This document shows positions 28,792 through 42,703 of a stretch of 64,000 nucleotides of DNA, piece after piece. Position numbers and translations under genes: made by a program. Position 1 is the stretch's first letter; every line of letters begins with the position of its first letter. This stretch comes from Saccharopolyspora rhizosphaerae. Lineage in GTDB: Bacteria; Actinomycetota; Actinomycetes; Mycobacteriales; Pseudonocardiaceae. The DNA is taken from the NCBI RefSeq assembly GCF_003931915.1, contig NZ_RSAA01000001.1, positions 434,001-498,000 on the forward strand, given 5' to 3'. The notes under the pieces were generated by a model. It saw only the letters and a list, made by a program, of their open reading frames with translations. It was not told where the DNA came from and did not search any database.

Positions 28792-30402
28792 ATGCGCGGC
28801 GACGTCGACATCATCCTCGTCGGGGCAGGTTCTGCGGGGTGCGTGCTCGCCAACCGGCTCTCGGCGGACCCGGCCCTGTCCGTGCTCCTGCTCGAAGCCG
28901 GCCCGCGGGACCGCAACCCGCTGCTGCACGTTCCCAAGGGCTTCGGCAAGTTGATCGGCAACCCCCGCTTCGCCTGGCACTTCCCCACCGATCCGATCGG
29001 TTCGACGCGCCGCACCGAGAAGTGGGTGCGCGGACGGGTCCTCGGCGGGTCCAGCTCGATCAACGGGATGGTCTACAACCGGGGTCACCGAGCGGACTAC
29101 GACGAGCTCGAGCGGCTCGGCAACCCCGGGTGGGGCTGGGACGAGGTGCTGCCGGTCTTCCGCGCCCTCGAGGACCACTCGCTGGGCCGCGGGCCCGGCC
29201 GCGGGGCGGGCGGACCGCTCTCGGTCAGCGTCGCCTCCCCCGGCGAACCCCTGTGCGAGGACATGATCGCCGCCGGGTCCGAGGCGGGTCTCAGCGCGGT
29301 CGACGACCTCAACGATTCCGACGCCGAACGCATCGGCTACTCGCCGATGACGATCCGCCACGGCCGGAGGGTCAGCGCGGCGCGGGCGTTCCTGCACCCG
29401 GCCCGCGATCGCCCCAACCTGCGGGTCCTCACCGGTGTGACGGTCGATTCCCTGCTGTTCGACGGTGACCGGGCGGTGGGCGTGCGGGGGCGGTTCCGCG
29501 GCTCCACTGTGGACTTCCGGTGCGTCCGAGAGGTCGTGCTCTGCGCGGGCAGCATCGGCAGCCCCGCGTTGCTGCAGCGGTCCGGGATCGGGCCCCGCGA
29601 GGTGCTGCGCCCGCTGGGCGTCGACACGCGCGTGGACGCCCCGAACGTCGGCGCTCGGATGCGCGAGCACCGCTGCGTGCCGCTGCAGTTCCGGTTGCGG
29701 GAGGACCGCGGTTACAACCGGCGGTTGAACTCCTCGGCGGCGCAGGTGCGCACGGCGTTGCGGTACCTGCGCACCCGGAGCGGGCCGCTGGCCGGCCCCG
29801 CCTTCGACGTAGTCGGGTTCCTCAAGAGCGACCCGCGGCTGGCCCGCCCGGACGCGCAGGTCCTGCTCGCTCCGCTGTCGCTCAAGCCGCACGGCGCCGG
29901 TGAGGAGGCGCAGGTGGAGGACGAACCCGGGGTGCAGGCCATCGGCTACGTGCTCCGGCCCGACAGCGAAGGCCGGTTGGCGATCACCTCGTCCGACCCC
30001 GACGACGACCTCACCGTCGACCCGGGGTTCCTCACCACCGGCCACGACCGCGAGATCACCGCGGCCACCTTGCGCCGGATGCGCGAGCTCTTCGCCCAGG
30101 AACCGATCGCACGGCACCTCGTCGGTGAAACGCTGCCCGGGACCGACGTCGACGACGTCGACGAGATCGCCGACGTGGCGTTGAACCGCGGGCACTGCGG
30201 CTACCACGCGATCGGGACGTGCGCGATGGGCCCGAACTCGGACGACGTGGTCGACCCGAGCTTGCGCGTGCGCGGGGTCGAGCGCCTCCGCGTCGTCGAC
30301 TCCTCGGCCTTCCCGACCATGGTCTCCGGCAACCTCAACGCCCCGGTCATGGCGTTCGCCTGGCGAGCCGCGGACGTCCTGCTCGACGGTCAGTCGTCCT
30401 GA
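28792..30402 (+). CDS. GMC-family FAD oxidoreductase
   Basis: The 536-residue protein is a glucose-methanol-choline oxidoreductase. It has the N-terminal dinucleotide motif GAGSAGCVLANRL, the first signature GRVLGGSSSINGMVYNRG, and near the C terminus HCGYHAIGTCAMG and SSAFPTMVSGNLNAP. These hold the catalytic His and the Asn of the His/Asn pair. Such enzymes oxidise alcohols, including choline and long-chain or cyclic alcohols. ATG at 28792 follows GGGGAGG; upstream in-frame codons lack a ribosome site. Its end overlaps the end of the LAL regulator gene by 13 bp on the other strand. Confidence 0.93.
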   Translation: MRGDVDIILVGAGSAGCVLANRLSADPALSVLLLEAGPRDRNPLLHVPKGFGKLIGNPRFAWHFPTDPIGSTRRTEKWVRGRVLGGSSSINGMVYNRGHRADYDELERLGNPGWGWDEVLPVFRALEDHSLGRGPGRGAGGPLSVSVASPGEPLCEDMIAAGSEAGLSAVDDLNDSDAERIGYSPMTIRHGRRVSAARAFLHPARDRPNLRVLTGVTVDSLLFDGDRAVGVRGRFRGSTVDFRCVREVVLCAGSIGSPALLQRSGIGPREVLRPLGVDTRVDAPNVGARMREHRCVPLQFRLREDRGYNRRLNSSAAQVRTALRYLRTRSGPLAGPAFDVVGFLKSDPRLARPDAQVLLAPLSLKPHGAGEEAQVEDEPGVQAIGYVLRPDSEGRLAITSSDPDDDLTVDPGFLTTGHDREITAATLRRMRELFAQEPIARHLVGETLPGTDVDDVDEIADVALNRGHCGYHAIGTCAMGPNSDDVVDPSLRVRGVERLRVVDSSAFPTMVSGNLNAPVMAFAWRAADVLLDGQSS

Positions 30403-33062
30403 CCGGGGTTGGTGCGCGCGGCGAGTTCCGCGCGGGAACGGATCCCGAGCTTGGCGTAGACGCGGGTCAGGTGGTACTGGACCGTCTTGCTCGACAGGAA
30501 CAGCTCCGCCGCCACCTCCTTGTTGGACAACCCGCGTGCCACCAAGCGGACGACCGATTCCTCCTGCGGCGTCAGGCTGCTCGGGGTCGGTTCTGGCCTG
30601 GCCCGGTGCACCCCACCGGCTTTGAGCTCGCGGTCGCAGCGCTCGACGTAGGTGGTGGCACCCATGGCGGCGAAGCCGTCGCGGGCGGCGCTGAGGACGA
30701 CGTCGGCGCGGGCGCGGCGGCGCAGGCGCCGCAGCGTCTGGCCGTAGCTGAAGTTGATGCGGGCCTGGTCGTAGCGCAGCGGGAGCGCGCTGATCAGCTC
30801 GAGCGCTTCGTCGAACGAGCCCGAGGCCGCTGCGACGTCGCCGCGCGCGCCGTGCAGCCGCCCGCGGGCCGCGGCGAGGCGGGCGCGGGTGGAGGCGTGG
30901 CCGCGCTTGGCGGCCAGCTTCTCGTGCGGGACGAGGAACTCCTCGGCCTCGTCCAGCCTGCCGAGCAGGACCAGGGCGTGGGCGTACATGTCCTGCCACG
31001 GCCAGTGGCCCGGTTCGTCCGTGCTCGCGCTCGGCGACGGCCGGGTCAGCGGGTGCAGCGCGCGCAGCACGCCGTCGGAGTCGGCGCGGGCCTCGGCCGC
31101 GTGCGCGCGGGCGAGCTGGCCGGGGATGCGCATGATGTGGTAGTCGCCGGCGCCGGTGGCGCCCTGCAGGAGCACCTCTTCGGTCGCCTCGACGTCACCG
31201 CGCGGGGCGTGCACCGCCGCGGCCGTCCACAGCAGCAGCGGGCCGGTCACCAAGATCCCGGTGTGCTCCTGCACCTCCATCGCTTCGCGCACGGTCGCCA
31301 GCGCCTCGTTCCACTCCCCGGTGAGGAACTGGACCCGCGCCAGCCAGGCCCTCGCCCACAGCGAGATCCGGGCCGACCCGCCGAGGTGCGCGGTGGGGAT
31401 GGCGCTCTCGAAGTCGACGCGGGCGTCGTCGATCCGGTCGCTGATCAGGTGGATCCACCCGCGCGCCATGGTCGCGCGCTGCCACTGCGCGCCGTGGCGC
31501 AGGCGGGTGGTGAGGTGGTCGTAGTGGCGCTGGGCTTGCTTCGGGCTGCCGGTGGCCGCCAGGCCGATGCCGCGGATGGCGGCGGCTTCCACGGCCGTCG
31601 GCGTGTCGGCGCCCGACAGCTCGATCGCGCGGTCGGCCCACAGCACGAGGTCGTTGCCGTCGTAGCGGCACAGCGCGTCGAGGACGTAGCGCTGGCAGAT
31701 CAGCGCGGCGGTCTCGGGTTCGCGGTCGGTGTTGACGATCGCCCAGGCGCGGCGGAGCCGGTTGCCTGCTTCGGCGGCCCTGCCCCGGACCAGGGCGAGG
31801 TAGCCGAGAACGGCGTCGCGCAGCGGGGTTTCGCGGATGCTCTCGACCTCGGGGATCAGCGCGGTGGCGCGGAAGACGTCGCCCGCACCGATGAGCGCGT
31901 CCACGGCTCGGGTGATCAGGGCTTGCTGGTGCTGGGGGTCGTCGGTGAGCCTGCTCGCGTCGCTGAGCAGGGTGGCGGCCGTGCCCCAGGCCCCTTCGGC
32001 GGCGCGTTCGCGGGCGAGGTCGTCGAGGCGTCCCGCCACTTCGGCGTCCGGCACTGGGCTGGCGGCCACCAGCAGCCGCAGAGACCGGACCGGGTCGTCG
32101 ACGAGTTCGGACGCGCGGCGCTGCAGCTGGGCGCGGCGCGCCGGGCCCAGCTCGGTGAGCACGGCCGCGCGCACCATCGGGTCAGGTGGGCTGACGTAGG
32201 TGAGCCCGCGCGGGGCCAGCGCGACCAGCCCGGCCGCCGTGGTGGCGTCCATCAGGGGCAGCGGTTCGGTGTCGAGCTCGGCCAGCGACATCACGCTGCG
32301 GACCGGCGCGTCGGGACCGAGGACCGCCGCGGCCTCGGCGAACCGGCGCGCGACCGGCGAGCAGGCGTTGAGGTCCTCGCGCACCCGTGCCTGCACCGCC
32401 GCGGGTGCGGGCAAGGTCGGCTCGAACTGGGACCAGGTGCTGCGCGGGAGTTCCACGAGCAGCTGCGCGGCCGGGCGCGGGCGGCCGAGGGTGTGGCGGC
32501 GCAACCGTTCGGCCATCGACGGGTGCAGCGCGACGCCGTGCGCGGCGGCCAGCTCGCTGATCTGACCTGCGTCCAGCGGCGGGACGCGGGGGGCGTCGGT
32601 GGCGATGCGCGGCAGCAGGTCGAGGACTTCGGCGGGGGCGCGCCGATCGCCGGTGGTCGCGGTCGCCAAGACGCGCAGCGCGGCGTCCTGGTGGTGGCGT
32701 TGGGCCGAGGCGAGGGTGCGCAGCGAGGCCACGTCGCCGAACTGGGCGTCGTGGACCACCAGCACCGTGCACGGTTCGAGCCGGGTGACGAGTTCGGCGG
32801 CGGTGTCCAGCGGGTTCGAGGTCGGCAGTTCCGGGACGAGCTGCACCAGCAAGGAGTAGGGGCGGTCGGCCTCCCACTCCGAGGCCGTGGCCCGCAGGAC
32901 CGGGACGTCCTGGCGGCCTGCGAGGTGGTCGGCCAGCGTCGAGCTCCCGATCCCGGGCGGCCCGCTGAGCAGGACGAAGCGGTTCTGCCCCGACCGCAGG
33001 ATCTGCTCCAGACCGGCCACGAGCTCGGTCCGCCCGATCAGCGGCTGTGCTGGTCGTGTCAC
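30390..33062 (-). CDS. Large LAL-type LuxR-family regulator with degenerate P-loop
   Basis: The 890-residue protein has an N-terminal NTPase domain, a long TPR-like helical repeat region (about 330-800) and a C-terminal LuxR helix-turn-helix (SLTPQEESVVRLVARGLSNKEVAAELFLSSKTV region). The P-loop reads GPPGIGSST, so the Walker A lysine is replaced by serine; the Walker B segment is VLVVHDAQ. ATP binding may be lost or altered. GTG at 33062 follows GAGGTGG. It lies after the ben genes on the same strand with a 297-bp gap, so it may have its own promoter while regulating the benzoate island. Confidence 0.9.
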   Translation of the reverse strand: MTRPAQPLIGRTELVAGLEQILRSGQNRFVLLSGPPGIGSSTLADHLAGRQDVPVLRATASEWEADRPYSLLVQLVPELPTSNPLDTAAELVTRLEPCTVLVVHDAQFGDVASLRTLASAQRHHQDAALRVLATATTGDRRAPAEVLDLLPRIATDAPRVPPLDAGQISELAAAHGVALHPSMAERLRRHTLGRPRPAAQLLVELPRSTWSQFEPTLPAPAAVQARVREDLNACSPVARRFAEAAAVLGPDAPVRSVMSLAELDTEPLPLMDATTAAGLVALAPRGLTYVSPPDPMVRAAVLTELGPARRAQLQRRASELVDDPVRSLRLLVAASPVPDAEVAGRLDDLARERAAEGAWGTAATLLSDASRLTDDPQHQQALITRAVDALIGAGDVFRATALIPEVESIRETPLRDAVLGYLALVRGRAAEAGNRLRRAWAIVNTDREPETAALICQRYVLDALCRYDGNDLVLWADRAIELSGADTPTAVEAAAIRGIGLAATGSPKQAQRHYDHLTTRLRHGAQWQRATMARGWIHLISDRIDDARVDFESAIPTAHLGGSARISLWARAWLARVQFLTGEWNEALATVREAMEVQEHTGILVTGPLLLWTAAAVHAPRGDVEATEEVLLQGATGAGDYHIMRIPGQLARAHAAEARADSDGVLRALHPLTRPSPSASTDEPGHWPWQDMYAHALVLLGRLDEAEEFLVPHEKLAAKRGHASTRARLAAARGRLHGARGDVAAASGSFDEALELISALPLRYDQARINFSYGQTLRRLRRRARADVVLSAARDGFAAMGATTYVERCDRELKAGGVHRARPEPTPSSLTPQEESVVRLVARGLSNKEVAAELFLSSKTVQYHLTRVYAKLGIRSRAELAARTNPGQDD

Positions 33063-33359
33063 GTCCACCTCGTCGTGCGTCGGCGCCCGTCCAGCATCCC
33101 GGACGGGCGCCGACCAGCTTAAGCGGCGTGCGCTGCGCCGGCCGTCGGCACGGTGTGGTGCCGCGCCGACGAGCGGGCCACCGACCCGGGCCCGACGAGG
33201 TCGTCCAGCCCAGCCCGGCCGAAGCCCGCGCACCAGGCGACACCGGCCGCTCACACCTCGTCGGTCAGTCGTGCGGCACCGATGCCGATCGGCGGGCTCG
33301 TGGCCGCACGGGTGGGGTGCGGGACGGGGTTGGTGGCGACCCCCCCGTCCCGGCCGACG

Positions 33360-36002
33360 TCAACCGAGGTCGCCGCCTGCGACCGGCAGGACGGTGCCGG
33401 TGATGTAGGACGCCTCCTCGGAAGCGAGGAAGGTGATGGCGGCGGCCTGCTCGTCCAACGTGCCGTAGCGCTTCATCAGCGACGTGCCCAGGGTCTGGTC
33501 GATGTGGGCCTGGAACCACTCCTGCTCCTGCTCGGTCTCCAGCGGCGAGCCACCTCGGGAGACCCGGCGCGGGGGCGCCTGGGTGCCGCCCGGGGCGGTG
33601 GCGACCACGCGGATGCCGGAATCGGCGCACTCCAGGGCCAGCGAAGCGGTGATGGCGTTGATGCCGCCCTTGGCCGCCGAGTACGGGATCCGGTGGACTC
33701 CCCGGGTGGCTGCCGAGGAGACGTTGACGATCACCCCGCTGCCCCGCTCCTGCATCGAGGGCAGCGCGGCGCGGCAGGAGAACAGCGTGGTCATCAGCGA
33801 CCTGCGCAGCTCGGTCTCGATCTGCTCCGGGGTGAACTCGGTGAACGGCTTGAACCAGATCGCTCCGCCGACGTTGTTGATGAGCACGTCGATGCGGCCG
33901 TGCCGGGCGACCGCCGCGTCCACCACGGACTGCGCGCCCTCCCAGGACTCCAGGTCGGCCACCACGGGCGAGGCTCCCAGCTCCTCGGCGAGGCCCTCGA
34001 CCAGTTCGGAGCGGTCGGCCAGCACGAGGTCGCCGCCTTCGGCCGCGATGCGGCGGGCGGTCTGCTCGCCGATGCCCTGGGCCGAGCCGGTGACGATGAC
34101 GACCTTGCCGTCGAAGCGCCCCGGGGTGGTGAAGCGCGGGCGCTTGGACTCCTCCGCGTCGGCCATGGCCCGCCGGGTGGTGTCCTTCGAGCGCTCGGCG
34201 TGCTCGGCGATCAGCTGCCGGGCCGCGGTGCGGTCGCCCGCCTCGAACGCGGTCACGATGTCGAGGTGGTCCTGGGTGCACCGGGGATCGCACCAGGTGG
34301 CGTTGCGCAGCGTGGTCTCCATGTGGCCCTTGACGCCGAGGGCGCGGTAGGCCTGCAGGAGGTGCTCGTTGCCGGTGAGGGTGAACAGGTAGTCGTGGAA
34401 GGCCGCGTTCGCCTCGGTGTAGGCGGCGGCGTCGACGAACCGGTCGCCGTCCACGTGCGGCACCGCCGATTCGGCGAGCAGCCGGTAACCGGCGAGCTGC
34501 TGGGAGCTGAGCCGGCCGATGGTCAGCTCCAGCGCGCCCAGCTCCAGCGCTTGGCGTGCCTCGAACACCGCGTCCGACTCGTGCACCGACGGGTGTTCCT
34601 CGCCGATCTCGTAACCACCGGGTGCCGGCGCGACGACCGGTTCGAGGTCGGTCGGCTCCGACAGCACCTGCTGACCTGCGACGCAGCGCGCCTCACCGTT
34701 GGCGATGAGCGCCTCACCGCGCTCGAGACCGCTCGTGCCACCACCGGTCCCGGCCCAGATGCGCTGCCCCGCGATGGAGCTCGCCGCGGCCCTCTCCTCC
34801 TCCACCGGCGGGAGGGAGCCGTCGTGCAGCGCCGCGACCGGGGTGCCCGGGAAGATGGTCTGACCGGCCAGGTTCCGGCCTTCCCCCGGGTTCTCCTCCA
34901 GTTCCGCCACGGGTTCGGGCTCCGCTTCCACCTCGGCGATGACGGGTTCGGGTGCGGGTTCCGGTTCGGGCTCGGCCTCGACGGCCGGGGCGCTGGTGGC
35001 GGCGAGGGCGAACTTCTCGTAGTAGAAGCCGGTCGGCTCGAAGCCGTCTCCGGCGAAGTGCTCGCGCACCGCCTCCACCATCGGCGGCGGCCCGCACAGG
35101 TACACCGCGACGTCACCGCCGTGCAGGTGCTCGTCCCGGATCAGCGTGGTCACGTAGCCCTTGTTCGGGGCGCTGCTGCCCGGGTCGGCGACGCAGTAGT
35201 CCCAGGTCAGGTTCTCGACGTCGGCGGCGAGCTCCCGCACGGTGTCCATCTCGACCAGGTCGTCGTCGGTGGTGACCCCGTAGATCAGGTGCGCGGGCCG
35301 CGTCGACCCGCAGGCGCGCATCGCGCGGATGATCGACAGGATCGGCGCGAGCCCGGTACCGCCGGCCAGCAGCAGCACCGGCCGGTCGGTCTCGCGCAGG
35401 AAGAAGCTGCCGTGCGGTCCGGTGAACGACAGCTCGTCGCCTGGCTGCGCCCGCTCGGTGAGGTACTCCGACATCACCCCGCCCGGGGTGATCTTGACCA
35501 GGAAGGTCAGCAGCTCGTCGTCGGGCGCGCTGCTGAAGGAGTAGGAGCGCGTCTCCTCAGTGCCGGGCACGGCGATGTTGACGTACTGGCCGGGCAGGAA
35601 CGCCAGCTCGTCCCGGTTCGGCGTCTTCAGCGTCAGCGACACCGTGGTCGGCGAGAGCCGCTCGACCGCGTTCACCGTCGCGGGGAAGGTCGCGGCCTGG
35701 GTCTTGGCCACCGCCGAGGTGCTGGCGATGCGCAGCACCAGGTCGGACTTCGGGGTCATGCTGCACGGCAGCACGTAACCGCGTTCGGCCTCGTCGGCGG
35801 TGAGCGCGTCGTCGATGTAGCTGCCGCCGTCGTAGTCACCGGACTCGCAGAGGGCCTTGCACGTGCCGCAGGCCCCGTCGCGGCAGTCCAGCGGGATGTT
35901 GATGCGCTGCCGGTAGGACGCATCGGCCACGGTCTGGTCCGGCGCGCACGTGATGAACCGGGTGACACCGTCCTCGAAGGACAGCGCGACTTGGTGGGTC
36001 AT
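33360..36002 (-). CDS. BenC-FCD-BenD fusion: benzoate dioxygenase reductase, FCD sensor and cis-diol dehydrogenase
   Basis: A single 880-codon frame without internal stop. Residues 1-95 are a plant-type 2Fe-2S ferredoxin (C40, C45, C48, C80). Residues about 100-332 are an FAD/NAD reductase (RSYSFSSAP, GGTGLAPILS, CGPPPMVE), as in BenC. A Glu/Pro-rich linker (340-372) and three xAGQxI-like repeats (378-446) follow. Residues about 472-612 match the FCD ligand domain of GntR regulators (AFHDYLF; DHLDIVTAFEAGD; AEH). Residues 628-880 are a short-chain dehydrogenase (TGSAQGIG, NNVGG, YSAAK), the expected BenD. It starts 11 bp after benB. It would pass electrons from NADH to BenAB and oxidise the resulting diol, with the FCD part as a possible metabolite sensor. 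Confidence 0.9.
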   Translation of the reverse strand: MTHQVALSFEDGVTRFITCAPDQTVADASYRQRINIPLDCRDGACGTCKALCESGDYDGGSYIDDALTADEAERGYVLPCSMTPKSDLVLRIASTSAVAKTQAATFPATVNAVERLSPTTVSLTLKTPNRDELAFLPGQYVNIAVPGTEETRSYSFSSAPDDELLTFLVKITPGGVMSEYLTERAQPGDELSFTGPHGSFFLRETDRPVLLLAGGTGLAPILSIIRAMRACGSTRPAHLIYGVTTDDDLVEMDTVRELAADVENLTWDYCVADPGSSAPNKGYVTTLIRDEHLHGGDVAVYLCGPPPMVEAVREHFAGDGFEPTGFYYEKFALAATSAPAVEAEPEPEPAPEPVIAEVEAEPEPVAELEENPGEGRNLAGQTIFPGTPVAALHDGSLPPVEEERAAASSIAGQRIWAGTGGGTSGLERGEALIANGEARCVAGQQVLSEPTDLEPVVAPAPGGYEIGEEHPSVHESDAVFEARQALELGALELTIGRLSSQQLAGYRLLAESAVPHVDGDRFVDAAAYTEANAAFHDYLFTLTGNEHLLQAYRALGVKGHMETTLRNATWCDPRCTQDHLDIVTAFEAGDRTAARQLIAEHAERSKDTTRRAMADAEESKRPRFTTPGRFDGKVVIVTGSAQGIGEQTARRIAAEGGDLVLADRSELVEGLAEELGASPVVADLESWEGAQSVVDAAVARHGRIDVLINNVGGAIWFKPFTEFTPEQIETELRRSLMTTLFSCRAALPSMQERGSGVIVNVSSAATRGVHRIPYSAAKGGINAITASLALECADSGIRVVATAPGGTQAPPRRVSRGGSPLETEQEQEWFQAHIDQTLGTSLMKRYGTLDEQAAAITFLASEEASYITGTVLPVAGGDLG

Positions 36003-36013
36003 GGCCGCCTCGC

Positions 36014-36556
36014 TCAGATGTGGTACACGTCGACGACGTGGTGGATGTAGTCGTTCTTGAGCACCACGGTCTTCCGGCGGATCAGCGGCGCCGGACCGGA
36101 GAAGTCGATGGTGTAGAACGACGTCCCGTAGTAGGGGTCCACGGTCTTGTACCGGAAGTACATGGTGTGCCAGTTGAACCGGACGTCCACGATGTCCCCG
36201 CGGCGTTCGATCAGCTCCACGTTGGTGATGTTGTGGCTGGTGCGGGGCTCCGGGATGGACGTGGCGCTGGAGCGCTCGGTGCGGATGCGGAAGACCCGGT
36301 CCTCCAGCCCGCCCTTGTTCGGGTAGTAGATGAGCGAGATGTCGGTCTGCGGGTCCTCGGTGAGCAGGTCGTCGTCACCCCAGGACGGCATCCAGAACAC
36401 GACGTCGTCGGCGTAGCACTCCAGCCACTTCTCGAACTCGCGGTCGTCGAGGTAGCGGGCCTCGCGGTAGAGGAACTGCTCGATGTCCTGCTGGGTGATG
36501 GACTTGGTGCCCGCGGGTGCGGTGGTGGGCGCGGTGGCGTCAGCGTTGACGGTCAT
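36014..36556 (-). CDS. benB: Benzoate 1,2-dioxygenase small (beta) subunit
   Basis: The 180-residue protein matches the beta subunits of ring-hydroxylating dioxygenases: QFLYREARYLDDREFEKWL, then YADDVVFWMPSW, and the C-terminal KNDYIHHVVDVYHI typical of benzoate/toluate types. It has a structural role in the alpha3beta3 enzyme that inserts O2 into benzoate. ATG at 36556 follows AGGAG. It sits 25 bp after benA and 11 bp before the reductase fusion, in one operon. Confidence 0.94.
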   Translation of the reverse strand: MTVNADATAPTTAPAGTKSITQQDIEQFLYREARYLDDREFEKWLECYADDVVFWMPSWGDDDLLTEDPQTDISLIYYPNKGGLEDRVFRIRTERSSATSIPEPRTSHNITNVELIERRGDIVDVRFNWHTMYFRYKTVDPYYGTSFYTIDFSGPAPLIRRKTVVLKNDYIHHVVDVYHI

Positions 36557-36581: not shown

Positions 36582-37946
36582 TCACTGGACGTCGGCGGCG
36601 CGTTCTGCGGCGATGGCGTTCCGCATGCGCTCCTGCCAGTAGCCGTGCTGGACCGGGTAGAGCCCTTCGTCCTCGTTCTTCTGGCCGGCCGAGATCACGC
36701 CCTTCATGTCGAGCGCTTCGGCGAGCTCGTCGGGACCGTTCAGCCAGTGCTCGGCACCGCGGCTCATGTCGTTCCACGGCGCGGCGGTGGCGCGGAAGGT
36801 CAGCTGGCAGGAGCGGAACTCCTCGAGGTCGTCCGGAGTGGCCATGCCCGAGGCGTTGAAGAAGTCCTCGTACTGGCGGATCCGCCACGCCCGCGACTCG
36901 GCGCTCTCGCCCTTGGGCGCGATGCAGTAGATGGTGACCTCGGTCTTGTCCGGCGCGATCGGCCGGAAGTGCCTGATCTGCGTGGAGAACTGGTCCATCA
37001 GGTAGACGTTCGGGTACAGGCACAGGTTCCGGGAGCCGCGCACCATGAACTCGCCCTTGGCTTCGCCGAACTCCTGCTTCAGCTCCTCGATGCGCGGCCA
37101 CAGCGGGCGGTCCTGCGGGTTGCCCGCCCAGGTCCACAGGCACAGGTGGCCGTTCGGGTAGGACCAGTAGCCGCCACCGGACTTGCCCCAGCTGCCCGCG
37201 TCGAGGGTCTTGGTGCTGTTCTTGGACTCACCGGTGCCGCGACGGGCGGTGGTGGCCGCGTAGTTCCAGTGCGTGGCGGTGACGTGGTAGCCGTCGGCGC
37301 CGTTCTCGGCCTGGACCTTCCAGTTGCCGTCGAAGGTGTAGGTCGACGCGCCGCGGAGCACCTCCAGGCCGTCCGGGGACTGGTCGACGAGCATGTCGAT
37401 GACCTTGGTGGTGTCGCCCAGGTGCTCGCTCAGCGGCGCCACGTCCGGGTTGAGGCTGCCGAACAGGAACCCGCGGTAGGAGTCGAAGCGGGCGACCTTG
37501 GTCATGTCGTGCGAGCCGTCGGTGTCGAACGCGGGCGGGTACCCGGCGCCGTCGGGATCCTTGACCTTGAGCAGCTTGCCGTCGTTGCGGAACGTCCAGC
37601 CGTGGAACGGGCACGTCAGCGTGGTGCGGTTGTCGGCCTTGCGGCGGCAGACCATCGCTCCGCGGTGGGCGCAGGCGTTGATCAGGCAGTGCAGCTCGCC
37701 CTCCTTGTCGCGGGTGATCACGACGGGCTGGCGGCCGATGTACGTGGTGAAGTAGTCGCCGGGGTTCGGCAGCTGGCTCTCGTGCGCGAGGTAGATCCAG
37801 TTGCCCTCGAAGATGTGCTTCATCTCGAGTTCGAAGATCTCCTCGTCGGTGAAGATCCGGCGGTTGGCCCGGTACACCCCGGCCTCGTGGTCCTCGACGA
37901 CGGCGTCGGCGACGACGGCGGACACGCGGTTCAGCATCTCGGTCAT
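36582..37946 (-). CDS. benA: Benzoate 1,2-dioxygenase large (alpha) subunit
   Basis: The 454-residue protein has a Rieske 2Fe-2S domain (CAHRGAMVC and CPFHGW) and a catalytic domain with the mononuclear iron site ([11 protein letters not shown], with the bridging Asp). Length and C terminus ([14 protein letters not shown]) match benzoate/anthranilate-type oxygenases. It converts benzoate to the cis-1,2-diol carboxylate with BenB and the reductase. ATG at 37946 follows GGAGG; upstream in-frame codons are not used. It is divergent from a LysR regulator and its leader contains a hairpin. Toluate or anthranilate cannot be excluded, but catechol genes adjoin. Confidence 0.95.
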
Positions 37947-37985
37947 GGATCCTCCAACGGCCCAGATCGACTCTGATCGGCCTCC

Positions 37986-38005
37986 CGGCGGCCGCTGGGC
38001 CGCCG
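37986..38005 (-). promoter_or_regulatory. Stable hairpin in the benA leader
   Basis: CGGCGGCC (37986-37993) pairs perfectly with GGCCGCCG (37998-38005) around a GCTG tetraloop, about 40 nt before the benA start. It may affect mRNA stability or act as an attenuator. Confidence 0.4.
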
Positions 38006-38058
38006 TGGCATGACTCGGAACCATGACAGCTCGTGGTGGTGGTCACACCGGACAAATA

Positions 38059-38075: not shown

Positions 38076-38189
38076 GTGCGATTCATCGTTGTCGTTTATC
38101 AATCGTGCGGAACAAAGTCTTTGTCTTCGATGAGAGGGCTCCTTACCGTGGGAGGGCATCGGCGACGAGGACGAGGGAGGAGGCCCGCC

Positions 38190-39098
38190 GTGGAGCTTCG
38201 CCACCTGCGTTACTTCGCCACCGTCGCCGAGACGTGCCACTTCGGCCGAGCCGCCGAGCAGCTGCACATCGCCCAGCCCGCGCTCTCGCACGCCGTCCGG
38301 CAGCTGGAGGACGAGCTCGGCGTGGCGCTGCTGGAGCGCACGACCAGGCAGGTGGGGCTCACCCCGGCGGGCGAGTTCTTCTTGGGCGAGGCCCAGCGGG
38401 TGCTCTCGGCCGTCGACGCCGGCGTGCGCGGGGTGCAGCGGATCGGCGAGGGGCAGCTCGGCCTGGTCCGCGTGGGTGTCACCGGCACCGCGGCCTTCTC
38501 GCACCTGCCGCACCTGGCGCGGGCGCTGGCCCAGCGGGTGCCGCAGGTCGAGCTGGAGGTGCGCGCCGAGCTGCTCACCGCGGAGCAGTGCGCGCAGCTG
38601 CGCGACGGTTCGCTGGGCATCGGAGTGCTCCGGCCGCCGGTGACCGGCGAGGACATCGACTACCGCGTGATCGAGGCCGAGCCGCTGGTGGCGGCGGTCC
38701 CCGCCGACCACCGGCTGGCCGTGGAGCCCGTGGTGTCGATGACCGACCTGCGCGCCGAACCGCTGGTGACCTACGACGGCCGCCACTCGGTCGTGCACGC
38801 GGCGGTGCTGCGCAGCTGCCGCGACGCCGGGTTCACCCCGAACCAGCAGCACCACGCCCCGGGCACCGCCGCGCTGCTCGCGCTGGTCGCCGGTGGCCTG
38901 GGCGTGGGCGTCGTGCCCGCATCCGCCCGTTCGCTGCCGCTGGCCGGGGTGGTCTTCCGCGACCTGGCGGGAGCCGCGACCGTCGAGCTGGCGCTGGCCT
39001 GGCACCGCGACACCAGCTCTCCCCTGGTCAACACCGTCCTCGCCGAGCTCGAGGACGTCTTCCCGTCCGCACGACCCCCAGCAGAGGCCGGCTCATGA
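38190..39098 (+). CDS. LysR-family regulator of the benzoate/catechol genes
   Basis: The 302-residue protein has the LysR winged helix (ELRHLRYFATVAETCHFGRAAEQLHI, AQPALSHAVRQLEDELG) and a two-lobed effector domain. The sequence resembles the CatR/CatM/BenM type that senses cis,cis-muconate or benzoate. GTG at 38190 follows GGGAGGAGG; upstream residues are not LysR-like. Its ATGA overlap with catB shows co-transcription with the cat genes, an arrangement that allows autoregulation together with benA control. Confidence 0.92.
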   Translation: MELRHLRYFATVAETCHFGRAAEQLHIAQPALSHAVRQLEDELGVALLERTTRQVGLTPAGEFFLGEAQRVLSAVDAGVRGVQRIGEGQLGLVRVGVTGTAAFSHLPHLARALAQRVPQVELEVRAELLTAEQCAQLRDGSLGIGVLRPPVTGEDIDYRVIEAEPLVAAVPADHRLAVEPVVSMTDLRAEPLVTYDGRHSVVHAAVLRSCRDAGFTPNQQHHAPGTAALLALVAGGLGVGVVPASARSLPLAGVVFRDLAGAATVELALAWHRDTSSPLVNTVLAELEDVFPSARPPAEAGS

Positions 39099-40198
39099 AG
39101 ATCACCCGGGTGGAGGCGATCCCGTTCGCCATCCCGTACCGCAAACCGCTGCGCTTCGCCTCCGGCGAGGTCCACGCCGCCGAGCACGTCCTGGTGCGGG
39201 TGCACACCGACGACGGGGTCGTCGGTGTCGCCGAGGCACCACCGCGGCCGTTCACCTACGGCGAGACCCAGGCCGGGATCGTCACGGTGATCGACACGAT
39301 CTTCGCACCGCAACTCACCGGGCTGAGCCTGCTGGAACGCGAGACCGCCTACGCGCGCTTGGCGCGCACCGTGGGCAACCCGACCGCGAAGGCCGCCATC
39401 GACATGGCGATGTGGGACGCCCTGGGCCGCAGCCTGGACGTGTCGGTGACCGAACTGCTCGGCGCCTACACCGACCGGATGCGCGTCTCGCACATGCTGG
39501 GCTTCGACGACCCCGCCGCGATGGTCGCCGAGGCCGAGAAGATGCGCGACACCTACGGGATCACCACCTTCAAGGTCAAGGTCGGCCGCCGTCCGGTCTC
39601 GCTGGACACCGCCGTGGTGCGAGCCCTGCGCGAGGGGCTGGGCGAGTCCGTCGAGCTCTACGTCGACGGCAACCGCGGCTGGACCGCCGCCGAGTCCGCG
39701 CGCGCCATGAAGGAGATGGCCGACCTGGACCTGCTCTTCGCCGAGGAGCTGTGCCCGGCCGACGACGTGCTCGGCCGGCGCTGGTTGGTGCAGCAGCTCG
39801 ACGTGCCGTTCATCGCCGACGAATCCGCCGTCACCCAGGCCGATGTCACCCGGGAGGTGCTCGGCGGATCGGCCACGGCGGTGAGCATCAAGACCGCGCG
39901 GACCGGCTTCACCGGTTCCCAGCGCACCCACCACCTCGCCGAAGGCCTCGGCCTGGAGGTCGTGATGGGCAACCAGGTCGACGGCCAGCTCGGCTCGCTG
40001 TGCACCGTCGCCTTCGGCGCCGCCCACGCGCTCACCTCGCGCCGGGCCGGCGAACTCTCCAACTTCCTCGACATGAGCGATGACCTGCTGGCCGAACCGC
40101 TGCGGATCAGCGACGGTGAGCTCACCGTCCGTCCCGGTGCCGGCCTGGGTGCCGAGCTTGATCCCGACAAGCTTCGGCACTACCGCCAGGACCGCTGA
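39095..40198 (+). CDS. catB: Muconate cycloisomerase
   Basis: The 367-residue enolase-superfamily protein has the catalytic KVKVG lysines, the metal ligands in YVDGN, FAEELCP and IADES, and the second lysine in VSIKTAR. It lactonises cis,cis-muconate to muconolactone. Its place next to catechol dioxygenase and muconolactone isomerase fixes the role better than sequence alone, since dipeptide epimerases are similar. The ATG overlaps the LysR stop by 4 bp. A 28-bp gap leads to catA. Confidence 0.93.
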   Translation: MKITRVEAIPFAIPYRKPLRFASGEVHAAEHVLVRVHTDDGVVGVAEAPPRPFTYGETQAGIVTVIDTIFAPQLTGLSLLERETAYARLARTVGNPTAKAAIDMAMWDALGRSLDVSVTELLGAYTDRMRVSHMLGFDDPAAMVAEAEKMRDTYGITTFKVKVGRRPVSLDTAVVRALREGLGESVELYVDGNRGWTAAESARAMKEMADLDLLFAEELCPADDVLGRRWLVQQLDVPFIADESAVTQADVTREVLGGSATAVSIKTARTGFTGSQRTHHLAEGLGLEVVMGNQVDGQLGSLCTVAFGAAHALTSRRAGELSNFLDMSDDLLAEPLRISDGELTVRPGAGLGAELDPDKLRHYRQDR

Positions 40199-40226
40199 CC
40201 CCCACCGCCAATCAAGGAGGATTCAG

Positions 40227-41072
40227 ATGACCACCGCCCACGACACGGCCACGGCCGCCGCTTCCGGCGCCAACGCGACCGAGCGCTTCAAGAGCGACAA
40301 GCTCGTCGGCGTGGAGGGCACCCCGCCTGAGCGCGTGAGCACGCTCGCCCGCGAGGTGCTCGAGGCCGTGCACGCCACCATCCGCAAGCACAAGGTGACC
40401 TACGCCGAGTACAACGCCCTCAAGGCGTGGCTGATCAACGTCGGCGAGGACGGCGAGTGGCCGCTGTTCCTCGACGTCTGGGTCGAGCACGTCGTCGAGG
40501 AGGTCGCCACCGAGCACCGCGAGGGCAACAAGGGGACGATCGAGGGCCCGTACTATGTCCCGGACGCCCCCGAGCAGGGCTCGAAGGGCGCGGTGCCGAT
40601 GCGCGAGGACGAGCCGGGCACGCCGCTGACCTGGACCGGCCGCGTCACCACCACCGACGGTTCGGCGCTGGCCGGGGCGACGGTGGAGCTGTGGCACGCC
40701 GACGCCGACGGCTTCTACTCGCAGTTCGCCCCTGGCCTCCCGGAGTGGAACCTGCGCGGGACGTTCACCACCGACGCCGACGGGAACTTCGAGATCCGCA
40801 CGGTGCGCCCGGCGTCGTACCAGATCCCGACCGACGGTGCCTGCGGCAAGCTCATCGCCGCCGCCGGGTGGCACGCGTGGCGGCCGGCGCACCTGCACGT
40901 CAAGGTCTCGGCACCGGGCCACGAGCTGCTGACCGCCCAGCTGTACTTCCCCGGCGACGAGCACAACGACGACGACATCGCCTCGGCGGTCAAGCCCGAG
41001 CTGATGCTCGACCCGAAACCGGTCGCCGGTGGCGAGGCCATCGAGTACGGCTTCGTCCTCGACCCGTCCTGA
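40227..41072 (+). CDS. catA: Catechol 1,2-dioxygenase
   Basis: The 281-residue intradiol dioxygenase has non-heme Fe(III) ligands in order: Tyr in GPYYVPDAP, Tyr in RPASYQIPTDG, and two His in HAWRPAHLHVKV. The N-terminal helical dimerisation domain (about 1-100) is present. It cleaves catechol to cis,cis-muconate. ATG at 40227 follows AAGGAGG at 7 nt, the best ribosome site of the operon. It lies between catB and catC on the plus strand. Confidence 0.96.
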   Translation: MTTAHDTATAAASGANATERFKSDKLVGVEGTPPERVSTLAREVLEAVHATIRKHKVTYAEYNALKAWLINVGEDGEWPLFLDVWVEHVVEEVATEHREGNKGTIEGPYYVPDAPEQGSKGAVPMREDEPGTPLTWTGRVTTTDGSALAGATVELWHADADGFYSQFAPGLPEWNLRGTFTTDADGNFEIRTVRPASYQIPTDGACGKLIAAAGWHAWRPAHLHVKVSAPGHELLTAQLYFPGDEHNDDDIASAVKPELMLDPKPVAGGEAIEYGFVLDPS

Positions 41073-41437: not shown

Positions 41438-42703
41438 GTGACCAGCACTCTCGACGAAGTCGACACCGGGGAGCCGGTTCGCCGCACACGCTTCGAACGT
41501 CCCTCCCCCGCCCGAGCGCGCCAGGTGCTGCGCGACCTCAACGGCTCCTCGGTGGCCGGCGGGGTGGTCGGCCTGGTGTTCTCCGCGACCGGCCCGATCG
41601 CGGTGATCCTCTCGGCCGGCCTGAACGGTGGGCTGAGCCCGGCGCAGCTCGCGTCGTGGGTGTTCGGGGTGTTCTTCCTCAACGGCGTGCTCACCGCGAT
41701 CGCGTCCTGGGTCTACCGGCAGCCGCTGGCGTTCTTCTGGACCATCCCCGGCACGGTCGTGGTCGGCGCCTCGCTGGACCACTTGCGCTGGTCGGAGGTG
41801 CTGGGCGCGTTCGTGGTGACCGCTCTGCTCATCCTCGCCATCGGCCTCACCGGGTGGGTCCGCACCGTCATGGCGGCCCTGCCGATGCCCATCGTGATGG
41901 CGATGGTCGCGGGCGTGTTCCTGCGCTTCGGGCTCGACCTCGTCCACGCCACCGGGTCGGACGCCGTCGTCGCCGTGCCGATGATCGCGGTGTTCCTGCT
42001 GCTCAGCGTGTTCCCCGCGGCCGGAAGGCTGGTGCCGCCGATCCTGGGTGCGCTGCTCGCAGGTGCGCTCGCCGTGGCCGCGTCCGGCCGCTTCGCCCTC
42101 GACGGGGCGGGCTGGCTCGCCCAGCCGCTGCTGCAGTCGCCGGAGTTCTCCTGGCGCGCCCTGACCGAACTCGTCGTGCCCCTGGCCATCACGGTGCTGG
42201 TGGTGCAGAACGGACAGGGCACAGCGGTTCTCCGGCAGGCGGGGCACCGCCCGCCGACCAACGTCGCAGCGCTGCTGTGCGGGCTCTGGTCGTTGCCGGC
42301 CGCCGCGGTCGGCGCGGTCTCGACCTGCCTGACCGGACCGACCAACGCGCTGCTGGTCGCCTCCACCGAACGCTCCCGCCAGTACACGGCCGGCATCGTG
42401 TGCGGTCTCGGCGCGATCGTCGTCGGGCTGTTCGCCCCGGCCTTCGTCCGCTTCATGCTGGCCACTCCCCCGGCGTTCATCGCGGTCCTCGGCGGGCTGG
42501 CCATGCTGCGCGCCTTGCAAGGTGCGTTCACCACCGCGTTCAGCACGAAGTTCACCCTGGGCGCCCTGCTGGCCTTCCTGGTGACCGTCTCCGGCGTGAA
42601 CCCGCTCAACATCAACTCCGCGTTCTGGGGTCTGCTGGCGGGCGTCCTGGTCGCCTTCGCCCTGGAACGAGCGGACTTCACCTCCCGCGACCAGGCGGCC
42701 TAG
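41438..42703 (+). CDS. benE: Benzoate/proton symporter
   Basis: The 421-residue protein has about twelve membrane helices and matches BenE benzoate transporters: DLNGSSVAGGVVGLVFSATGP at the start, then FWTIPGTVVVGASL, and a late VSGVNPLNINSAFWGL. BenE imports benzoate with protons. GTG at 41438 is preceded by GGAGGGGG. It comes after the cat genes but behind a strong hairpin, so its expression may be partly independent. Confidence 0.93.
   Translation: MTSTLDEVDTGEPVRRTRFERPSPARARQVLRDLNGSSVAGGVVGLVFSATGPIAVILSAGLNGGLSPAQLASWVFGVFFLNGVLTAIASWVYRQPLAFFWTIPGTVVVGASLDHLRWSEVLGAFVVTALLILAIGLTGWVRTVMAALPMPIVMAMVAGVFLRFGLDLVHATGSDAVVAVPMIAVFLLLSVFPAAGRLVPPILGALLAGALAVAASGRFALDGAGWLAQPLLQSPEFSWRALTELVVPLAITVLVVQNGQGTAVLRQAGHRPPTNVAALLCGLWSLPAAAVGAVSTCLTGPTNALLVASTERSRQYTAGIVCGLGAIVVGLFAPAFVRFMLATPPAFIAVLGGLAMLRALQGAFTTAFSTKFTLGALLAFLVTVSGVNPLNINSAFWGLLAGVLVAFALERADFTSRDQAA

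Follow-up and report, generated by a model that had tools for sequence, protein, structure and literature searches.

In this study we focus on a gene of Saccharopolyspora rhizosphaerae in which the reductase (BenC) and the diol dehydrogenase (BenD) of benzoate oxidation are joined in a single frame, with an FCD domain between them. The gene lies on contig NZ_RSAA01000001.1 in a stretch of 64,000 nucleotides (positions 434,001 to 498,000), referred to here as the window, and positions below are those of the window. The gene and its parts are as follows.

33360..36002, minus strand: benC-FCD-benD fused gene, 880 codons plus stop, ATG start, no internal stop
35007..36002, minus strand: BenC part, residues 1-332, with the [2Fe-2S], flavin adenine dinucleotide (FAD) and nicotinamide adenine dinucleotide (NAD) domains (NF040810)
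34617..35006, minus strand: linker, residues 333-462, fast-evolving (alignment and comparison of substitution ratios)
34845..34874, minus strand: AGQ motif 1, residues 377-386
34749..34778, minus strand: AGQ motif 2, residues 409-418
34656..34685, minus strand: AGQ motif 3, residues 440-449
34194..34568, minus strand: FCD domain, residues 479-603 (PF07729, fold search)
34200..34409, minus strand: stretch bearing the putative metal ligands N532, H536, H579 and H601 (invariance in alignments)
34164..34166, minus strand: codon M613, proposed as an internal start, unsupported as a start
33360..34118, minus strand: BenD part, residues 629-880, plus stop (NF040811)

The first-pass annotation of this DNA had described one uninterrupted 880-codon frame running from BenC through three AGQ repeats and an FCD domain to BenD. 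The open reading frame and three profiles confirmed this layout, and the three repeats were found in the linker. Residues 3-332 match the NCBIfam equivalog NF040810 (BenC) with 491 bits against a cut-off of 430, residues 629-880 the equivalog NF040811 (BenD) with 401.7 bits against 380, and residues 479-603 the Pfam family PF07729 (FCD) with 58.5 bits against 24.3 (E-value 1.2e-15). AntC was rejected as an identity for the reductase part, since NF008822 gave 288.9 bits, under its cut-off of 402. The BenC part also aligns over residues 2-332 (E 7.5e-106) with the benzoate dioxygenase reductase of PDB entry 1krh, a solved chain of 338 residues that, unlike the fusion, contains neither FCD nor dehydrogenase. 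In 37 aligned sequences the 2Fe-2S cysteines and the FAD and NAD motifs of BenC are invariant, as are the glycine motif and the catalytic Tyr/Lys by which BenD is recognised as a short-chain dehydrogenase/reductase (SDR). As strict patterns over the 80 loci described below, they were recovered in 80/80 (2Fe-2S, FAD, SDR glycine), 77/80 (NAD) and 78/80 (SDR Tyr/Lys). Judged from these motifs, both enzyme parts look active. The next-best BenC-like match in the genome of the organism is 31% identical and no SDR is more than 41% identical to BenD, so the fused protein is probably its sole source of BenC and BenD activities.

Internal translation from the ATG at 34166, which had been raised as a way to make BenD separately, found no support: no Shine-Dalgarno-like sequence was seen before M613, whereas the first ATG of the gene is preceded by GCGAGGCGGCC; the start sites were readable by the pattern used in 68 of 88 loci. 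M613 is Met in 37/37 rows of alignment A1 (the window protein and 36 of the 80 loci), which excludes locus L035, where the residue is Ile.

A scan with the whole protein as query, using one genome per species, gave 148 confirmed relatives, of which 80 were retained; being seeded by peptides from all parts of the query, it is biased towards full fusions. All 80 retained relatives, which we take to be actinobacteria without exception, carry BenC, FCD and BenD in that order in one uninterrupted frame. A sequencing or assembly artefact is ruled out, because the same frame is shared by these 80 named relatives. They include members of Saccharopolyspora, Amycolatopsis, Prauserella, Nocardia, Nocardioides, Rhodococcus and Williamsia, as well as Gordonia, Mycolicibacterium, Geodermatophilus, Kribbella, Flexivirga, Kitasatospora and others; some of these named loci and some of the same-family genomes used below are apparently identical. 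The genome scans also bear out the longer BenC proteins in other actinobacteria that the first-pass annotation had mentioned.

Scans by genome, in which the BenC of Corynebacterium glutamicum was recovered as a control at the family, class and phylum levels, show how the fusion stands among other forms. Within the family, 57 of 297 sampled genomes have a BenC match at E 1e-90, 45 of them in open frames of at least 698 residues and 12 in shorter ones. Thirty of these loci were examined and comprise 18 BenC-FCD-BenD proteins (window included), one BenC-linker-BenD (L032), one BenC-FCD (L004) and 10 stand-alone BenC; by open-frame length only, 26 of the remaining 27 have at least 698 residues and one is a partial match of 417. 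In the class (394 genomes), 19 matches in 18 genomes correspond to 11 fusions with FCD (window included), one BenC-FCD (L117), two stand-alone forms (L125, L126) and five of another reductase fusion. The phylum scan (396 genomes) gave seven matches: three fused proteins (our own, L118 and L120), L117, and three of the other reductase fusion. Separate benC and dehydrogenase genes occur in the listed proteobacterial plasmids and in some actinobacteria. Taken as sequences, these loci indicate that the fusion is a conserved protein and no accident.

Two observations were made alongside. The fusion is also present beside cat genes on Tsukamurella tyrosinosolvens plasmid NZ_LR134459.1 (L191), the sole one of 105 matching plasmid records with 80% or more of the query matched in one place; this gene of 2,583 bases encodes 860 residues matching query residues 1-880 and is annotated just as benC. 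In five genomes of one genus (L127-L131), BenC-like reductases of 34-39% identity lie in open frames of 854-932 residues; the only one scanned, L129, has a C-terminal part resembling FAD_binding_3, below the Pfam cut-off. The five represent a different reductase fusion.

The FCD domain is kept at least as strictly as the enzymes around it. The ratio of non-synonymous to synonymous substitution rates (dN/dS), calculated on 9 of the 37 aligned sequences (36 pairs), is lowest in FCD (0.148, against 0.190 in BenC and 0.187 in BenD), and FCD is closer to the window copy than BenC is in 77/80 loci and than BenD is in 73/80. On these comparisons, the domain appears to be constrained at least as strongly as the enzyme domains. 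The residues that we take to be the usual metal ligands of FCD domains are D or N followed by three His. The corresponding N532, H536, H579 and H601 are invariant in 37/37 rows of A1 and in 44/44 rows of a second alignment (A2), all 44 members of which match PF07729; the N/H/H/H pattern, searched over the whole protein, is present in 80/80 loci. A profile alignment, itself weak (E 0.44), sets this pattern opposite the D/H/H/H of TM0439. A structure model of the domain has a predicted local distance difference test (pLDDT) score of 94 and an all-helical FCD fold, and among solved structures it best matches regulators of the GntR/FCD type, including inducer-bound DhdR, VanR Atu1419, TM0439, McbR and NanR. 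A search of PDB sequences with the FCD sequence alone gave one irrelevant match (E 0.16); profile and fold searches did better. The FCD fold is thus shared with GntR/FadR regulators (VanR Atu1419, DhdR, TM0439). These regulators, however, bind DNA through a winged helix, and PF00392 is absent from the Pfam matches of the fused protein to E 0.001, which led us to reject membership in that family; the stretch preceding FCD is a linker of low pLDDT. A CxxxC pair at residues 571-575 (34278-34292), just ahead of the putative ligand H579, was also seen in fused forms, while L004 and L117 lack it; it is possibly redox- or metal-linked.

The nearest relatives of this FCD outside the ben genes appear to be mostly FCD domains fused to flavin reductases. 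Apart from ben fusions, profile scans of two genome sets (396 and 200) returned 11 matches, namely seven flavin reductase-FCD fusions, three GntR-type proteins and one fragment. The seven (L136, L137, L138, L150, L151, L152 and L155) all match Flavin_Reduct and FCD by Pfam. A GntR winged helix scores over its cut-off in L136, L150 and L155 and below it in L151 and L152, and was not found in L137 and L138; in several of these proteins it sits between reductase and FCD. Like the ben fusion they carry a related FCD on an NADH-type reductase (NADH being the reduced form of NAD), and unlike it they have an unrelated reductase fold and, in some, the winged helix. In a tree of 59 rows, which includes 29 of 83 FCD matches and omits L179 (same place as L155) and the fragment L153, the 20 ben FCDs form one set (support 99/95). 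That set lies inside a 29-row set with all seven flavin-reductase FCDs and two GntR-type rows (97/86), apart from 30 other GntR-type rows; rows were labelled GntR or flavin reductase by a short motif, with Pfam confirmation for the seven flavin-reductase rows and not for the GntR rows. One flavin reductase-FCD gene (L186) has an HpaB-type oxygenase gene as its same-strand neighbour; the HpaB-type gene of L187 is about 4 kb from the reductase-FCD gene, on the opposite strand and with a regulator-like gene between.

The linker joining BenC to FCD varies from 77 to 228 residues across the 80 loci, and its repeats are far from random. Strict motifs of the consensus R-x-[IVL]-A-G-Q-x-[VMIL]-[FLW]-P occur 164 times in the 80 linkers, against a mean of 1.3 (maximum 5) over 200 shuffles, and at least 76 of 88 spacings fall at 28-33 residues. 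Three copies, the number in the window, are present at 30 of the 80 loci; 23 loci have one, 21 have two, a single locus has four and another five, and 4 have none, so that three copies are common and not universal. Alignment A3 joins the window linker to those of nine loci picked for their richness in motifs, and the columns invariant in it are accordingly not representative. Against Pfam up to E 10, the linker gave just one low-complexity match, far under cut-off; a linker profile run in five genomes matched the ben fusion in each, and one of the genomes gave two further weak matches (E 0.23 and 0.40). A docking role for the repeats would be a guess. The separate BenD of L190 (L190:6201-7028) starts with MVTTYAGQFVTPGRF, an AGQ-like string at its N-terminus that may be chance.

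In a BenC tree of 39 chosen rows, whose bootstrap had not settled, the BenC parts of the fused proteins form one group (100/99), which also includes L032 and L125; in the BenD tree, which is unrooted, a root placed among the unfused rows is needed for the fused rows to fall on one side. L032 (L188:5268-7592) is a natural BenC-linker-BenD fusion of 774 residues without FCD and with two strict AGQ motifs, and L125 (L189:9560-10720) is a BenC that lacks FCD and has a single AGQ motif at its end, BenD being encoded in a separate frame. These trees suggest that the fusion probably arose once, FCD being lost in two sampled relatives (L032 and L125), one of which (L125) split again. L004 and L117 are BenC-FCD proteins with the same N/H/H/H residues and a separate BenD; they resemble the fusion in having BenC then FCD with that pattern, and differ from it in that BenD is not in frame and the CxxxC ahead of the third metal ligand is missing. 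In L190, benC-FCD and benD are adjacent with a one-base overlap, a layout in which a frame change at the stop would yield the fusion.

The bare architecture has already been published, and the novelty implied by the first-pass annotation is accordingly smaller. In Gordonia alkanivorans YC-RL2, benC and benD were reported in 2019 to be fused, with an FCD domain characteristic of GntR regulators and, as in the window, LysR and LuxR regulators nearby; the passages describing it concern one genome and do not deal with breadth, tree, metal site, linker repeats or mechanism (PMC6362181). Elsewhere, a figure legend labels the benC of R. ruber both reductase and dehydrogenase (PMC6498646), and in Rhodococcus TG-1 benC is named an FCD domain-containing protein, with benD listed apart, which by published name, not by sequence, likens it to the BenC-FCD type (PMC11858498). 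By titles and abstract starts, we recognised among the open-licence papers listed no functional study of the fusion and no paper on flavin reductase-FCD proteins, nor did we meet there the breadth of the fusion or the kinship of its FCD with flavin-reductase FCDs. What is new here is the conservation of the FCD fold and metal-site residues together with their constraint, the flavin-reductase kinship, the linker repeats and the probable single origin.

The fused gene is surrounded by the other genes of the pathway and by regulators.

36014..36556, minus strand: benB, oxygenase small subunit (TIGR03232, 271 bits, cut-off 225.55)
36582..38024, minus strand: benA, oxygenase large subunit, first start in frame (TIGR03229, 802.5 bits, cut-off 780.95)
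30390..33254, minus strand: LuxR-type regulator gene downstream of the fusion, first start in frame (GerE 63.6 bits, AAA_16 below cut-off)
38076..39098, plus strand: LysR-type regulator, divergent from benA (PF03466, PF00126)
39098..40198, plus strand: muconate-cycloisomerase-like gene, start approximate (PF13378, PF02746)
40080..41072, plus strand: catechol dioxygenase frame, listed from its first start, the real one probably lying further downstream (PF00775, PF04444)
41438..42703, plus strand: BenE benzoate transporter (PF03594)

Thus benA and benB precede the fusion on the same strand, and the LysR gene is followed by the muconate-cycloisomerase-like gene, the catechol dioxygenase and BenE. 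A scan for promoters and terminators found none.

The reading that we favour, at a probability of roughly 0.5, is that of one bifunctional benzoate-to-catechol protein in which BenC oxidises NADH under the control of an FCD that binds benzoate or some other acid of the pathway. The BenC part would pass electrons from NADH to the BenA/BenB oxygenase, giving the cis-diol, which the BenD part would convert to catechol while regenerating NADH; the NADH balance of the benzoate pathway is well established. FCD, a GntR-regulator-type effector domain without its DNA-binding half and with a putative conserved metal site, would most likely bind benzoate or another acid of the pathway, and the ligand-bound domain would gate NADH oxidation, which would keep electrons from being lost to oxygen in the absence of substrate. 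Ligand, metal binding, gating and local recycling of NADH are what we infer beyond the observed domain order and conservation.

With HpaB-type genes in the L186 and L187 reductase neighbourhoods, a MarR-gated HpaC becomes the closest working model. According to a review, the HpaC (C1) of A. baumannii has a C-terminal MarR domain; once the aromatic substrate is bound there, self-inhibition is lifted and flavin reduction increases by a factor of 30 or more (PMC10816480). Like the BenC fusion, it oxidises NADH in partnership with an aromatic oxygenase and bears a domain of the kind found in regulators; it differs in being a flavin reductase and not an iron-sulfur flavoenzyme, in carrying MarR and not FCD, and in lacking a dehydrogenase, and the gating demonstrated for HpaC would apply to the ben fusion by analogy. 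The fused protein itself is not of the HpaC/C1 type, neither Flavin_Reduct nor MarR being among its Pfam matches to E 0.001. That a metabolite tunes electron flow through FCD, as the first-pass annotation had proposed, is a reasonable inference, strengthened by the flavin-reductase kinship; since FCD groups with reductase-linked FCDs, it becomes a specific test. More tentatively, FCD without DNA binding may be a plug-in gate for NADH-dependent electron supply on two unrelated types of aromatic-oxygenase reductase, namely BenC and flavin reductases, at least one of them beside HpaB. In the ben case gate, reductase and NADH-regenerating dehydrogenase would form one chain docked through the tandem RxIAGQxVFP repeats, a ligand-gated, cofactor-recycling module.

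Several points weigh against such gating. Ten of the 30 fetched same-family loci encode a stand-alone BenC without FCD, so that gating is not required for benzoate oxidation as such, and two sampled members of the fused group also lack FCD, L032 being still fused and L125 split. The FCD tree is uneven, most other rows coming from four genomes; the flavin-reductase rows were fetched by similarity to ben FCDs and their placement is therefore partly a matter of ascertainment, and two plain GntR rows (L139 and L140) fall within the same 29-row set. The link to HpaB comes from two inspected neighbourhoods with one clear neighbour. Finally, the full-length structure model (predicted template modelling score 0.45, linker of low confidence) is uninformative on domain contacts.

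Of the alternatives, the one that survives best, unlikely as we consider it, is that FCD senses nothing and serves with BenD as an oligomerisation module, holding BenC units and the oxygenase at fixed stoichiometry for local transfer of NADH or diol. FCD regulators dimerise and SDRs are usually tetramers. Since L032 keeps the fusion without FCD, the two are separable and joining alone is viable; the long linker with its repeated motifs would also suit docking. A spacer, however, needs neither a kept N/H/H/H site nor a dN/dS below that of the enzyme domains. Channelling of the diol, which the first-pass annotation had put forward, found nothing beyond co-linearity behind it; the interpretation given there stands in part, for domain order, FCD and longer BenC proteins, and not for channelling.

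Less probable still is feedback by a later product on BenD or on the whole protein, in which FCD would bind muconate, catechol or diol and, with later steps falling behind, slow down the dehydrogenase or reductase. The join of about 25 residues between FCD and BenD, against the long linker to BenC, speaks for it, whereas BenC-FCD proteins with a separate BenD exist (L004, L117) and the nearest FCD relatives sit on reductases, which makes a reductase the older partner of FCD. We regard as quite improbable that a ben regulator responds to the ligand, or to the redox state, of the fused protein, as has been proposed for ThnY, a ferredoxin reductase by which tetralin genes are regulated (PMC3771892). 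LuxR-type and LysR-type regulator genes do flank the operon and are present in L190 and L191 too, but the fused protein has no winged helix that we could find, and ordinary regulators are already there. The least probable reading, that linker cleavage or the start at M613 yields mostly separate BenC and BenD, could appeal to the low-complexity, low-confidence linker and to the M613 kept in A1, and it is countered by the missing Shine-Dalgarno-like sequence, by the Ile of L035 and by a frame kept in 80/80 loci, more than cleavage alone would require.

The protein deserves biochemistry, and the grouping of its FCD with reductase-linked FCDs is the best new lead. The Tsukamurella plasmid relative, with 860 residues named BenC only, shows that two domains can go unmentioned in an annotation. 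Should the gate prove real, catabolic reductases of two families would be switched directly by sensor domains recruited from transcription factors, and the fusion would offer a natural one-chain design for NADH recycling.

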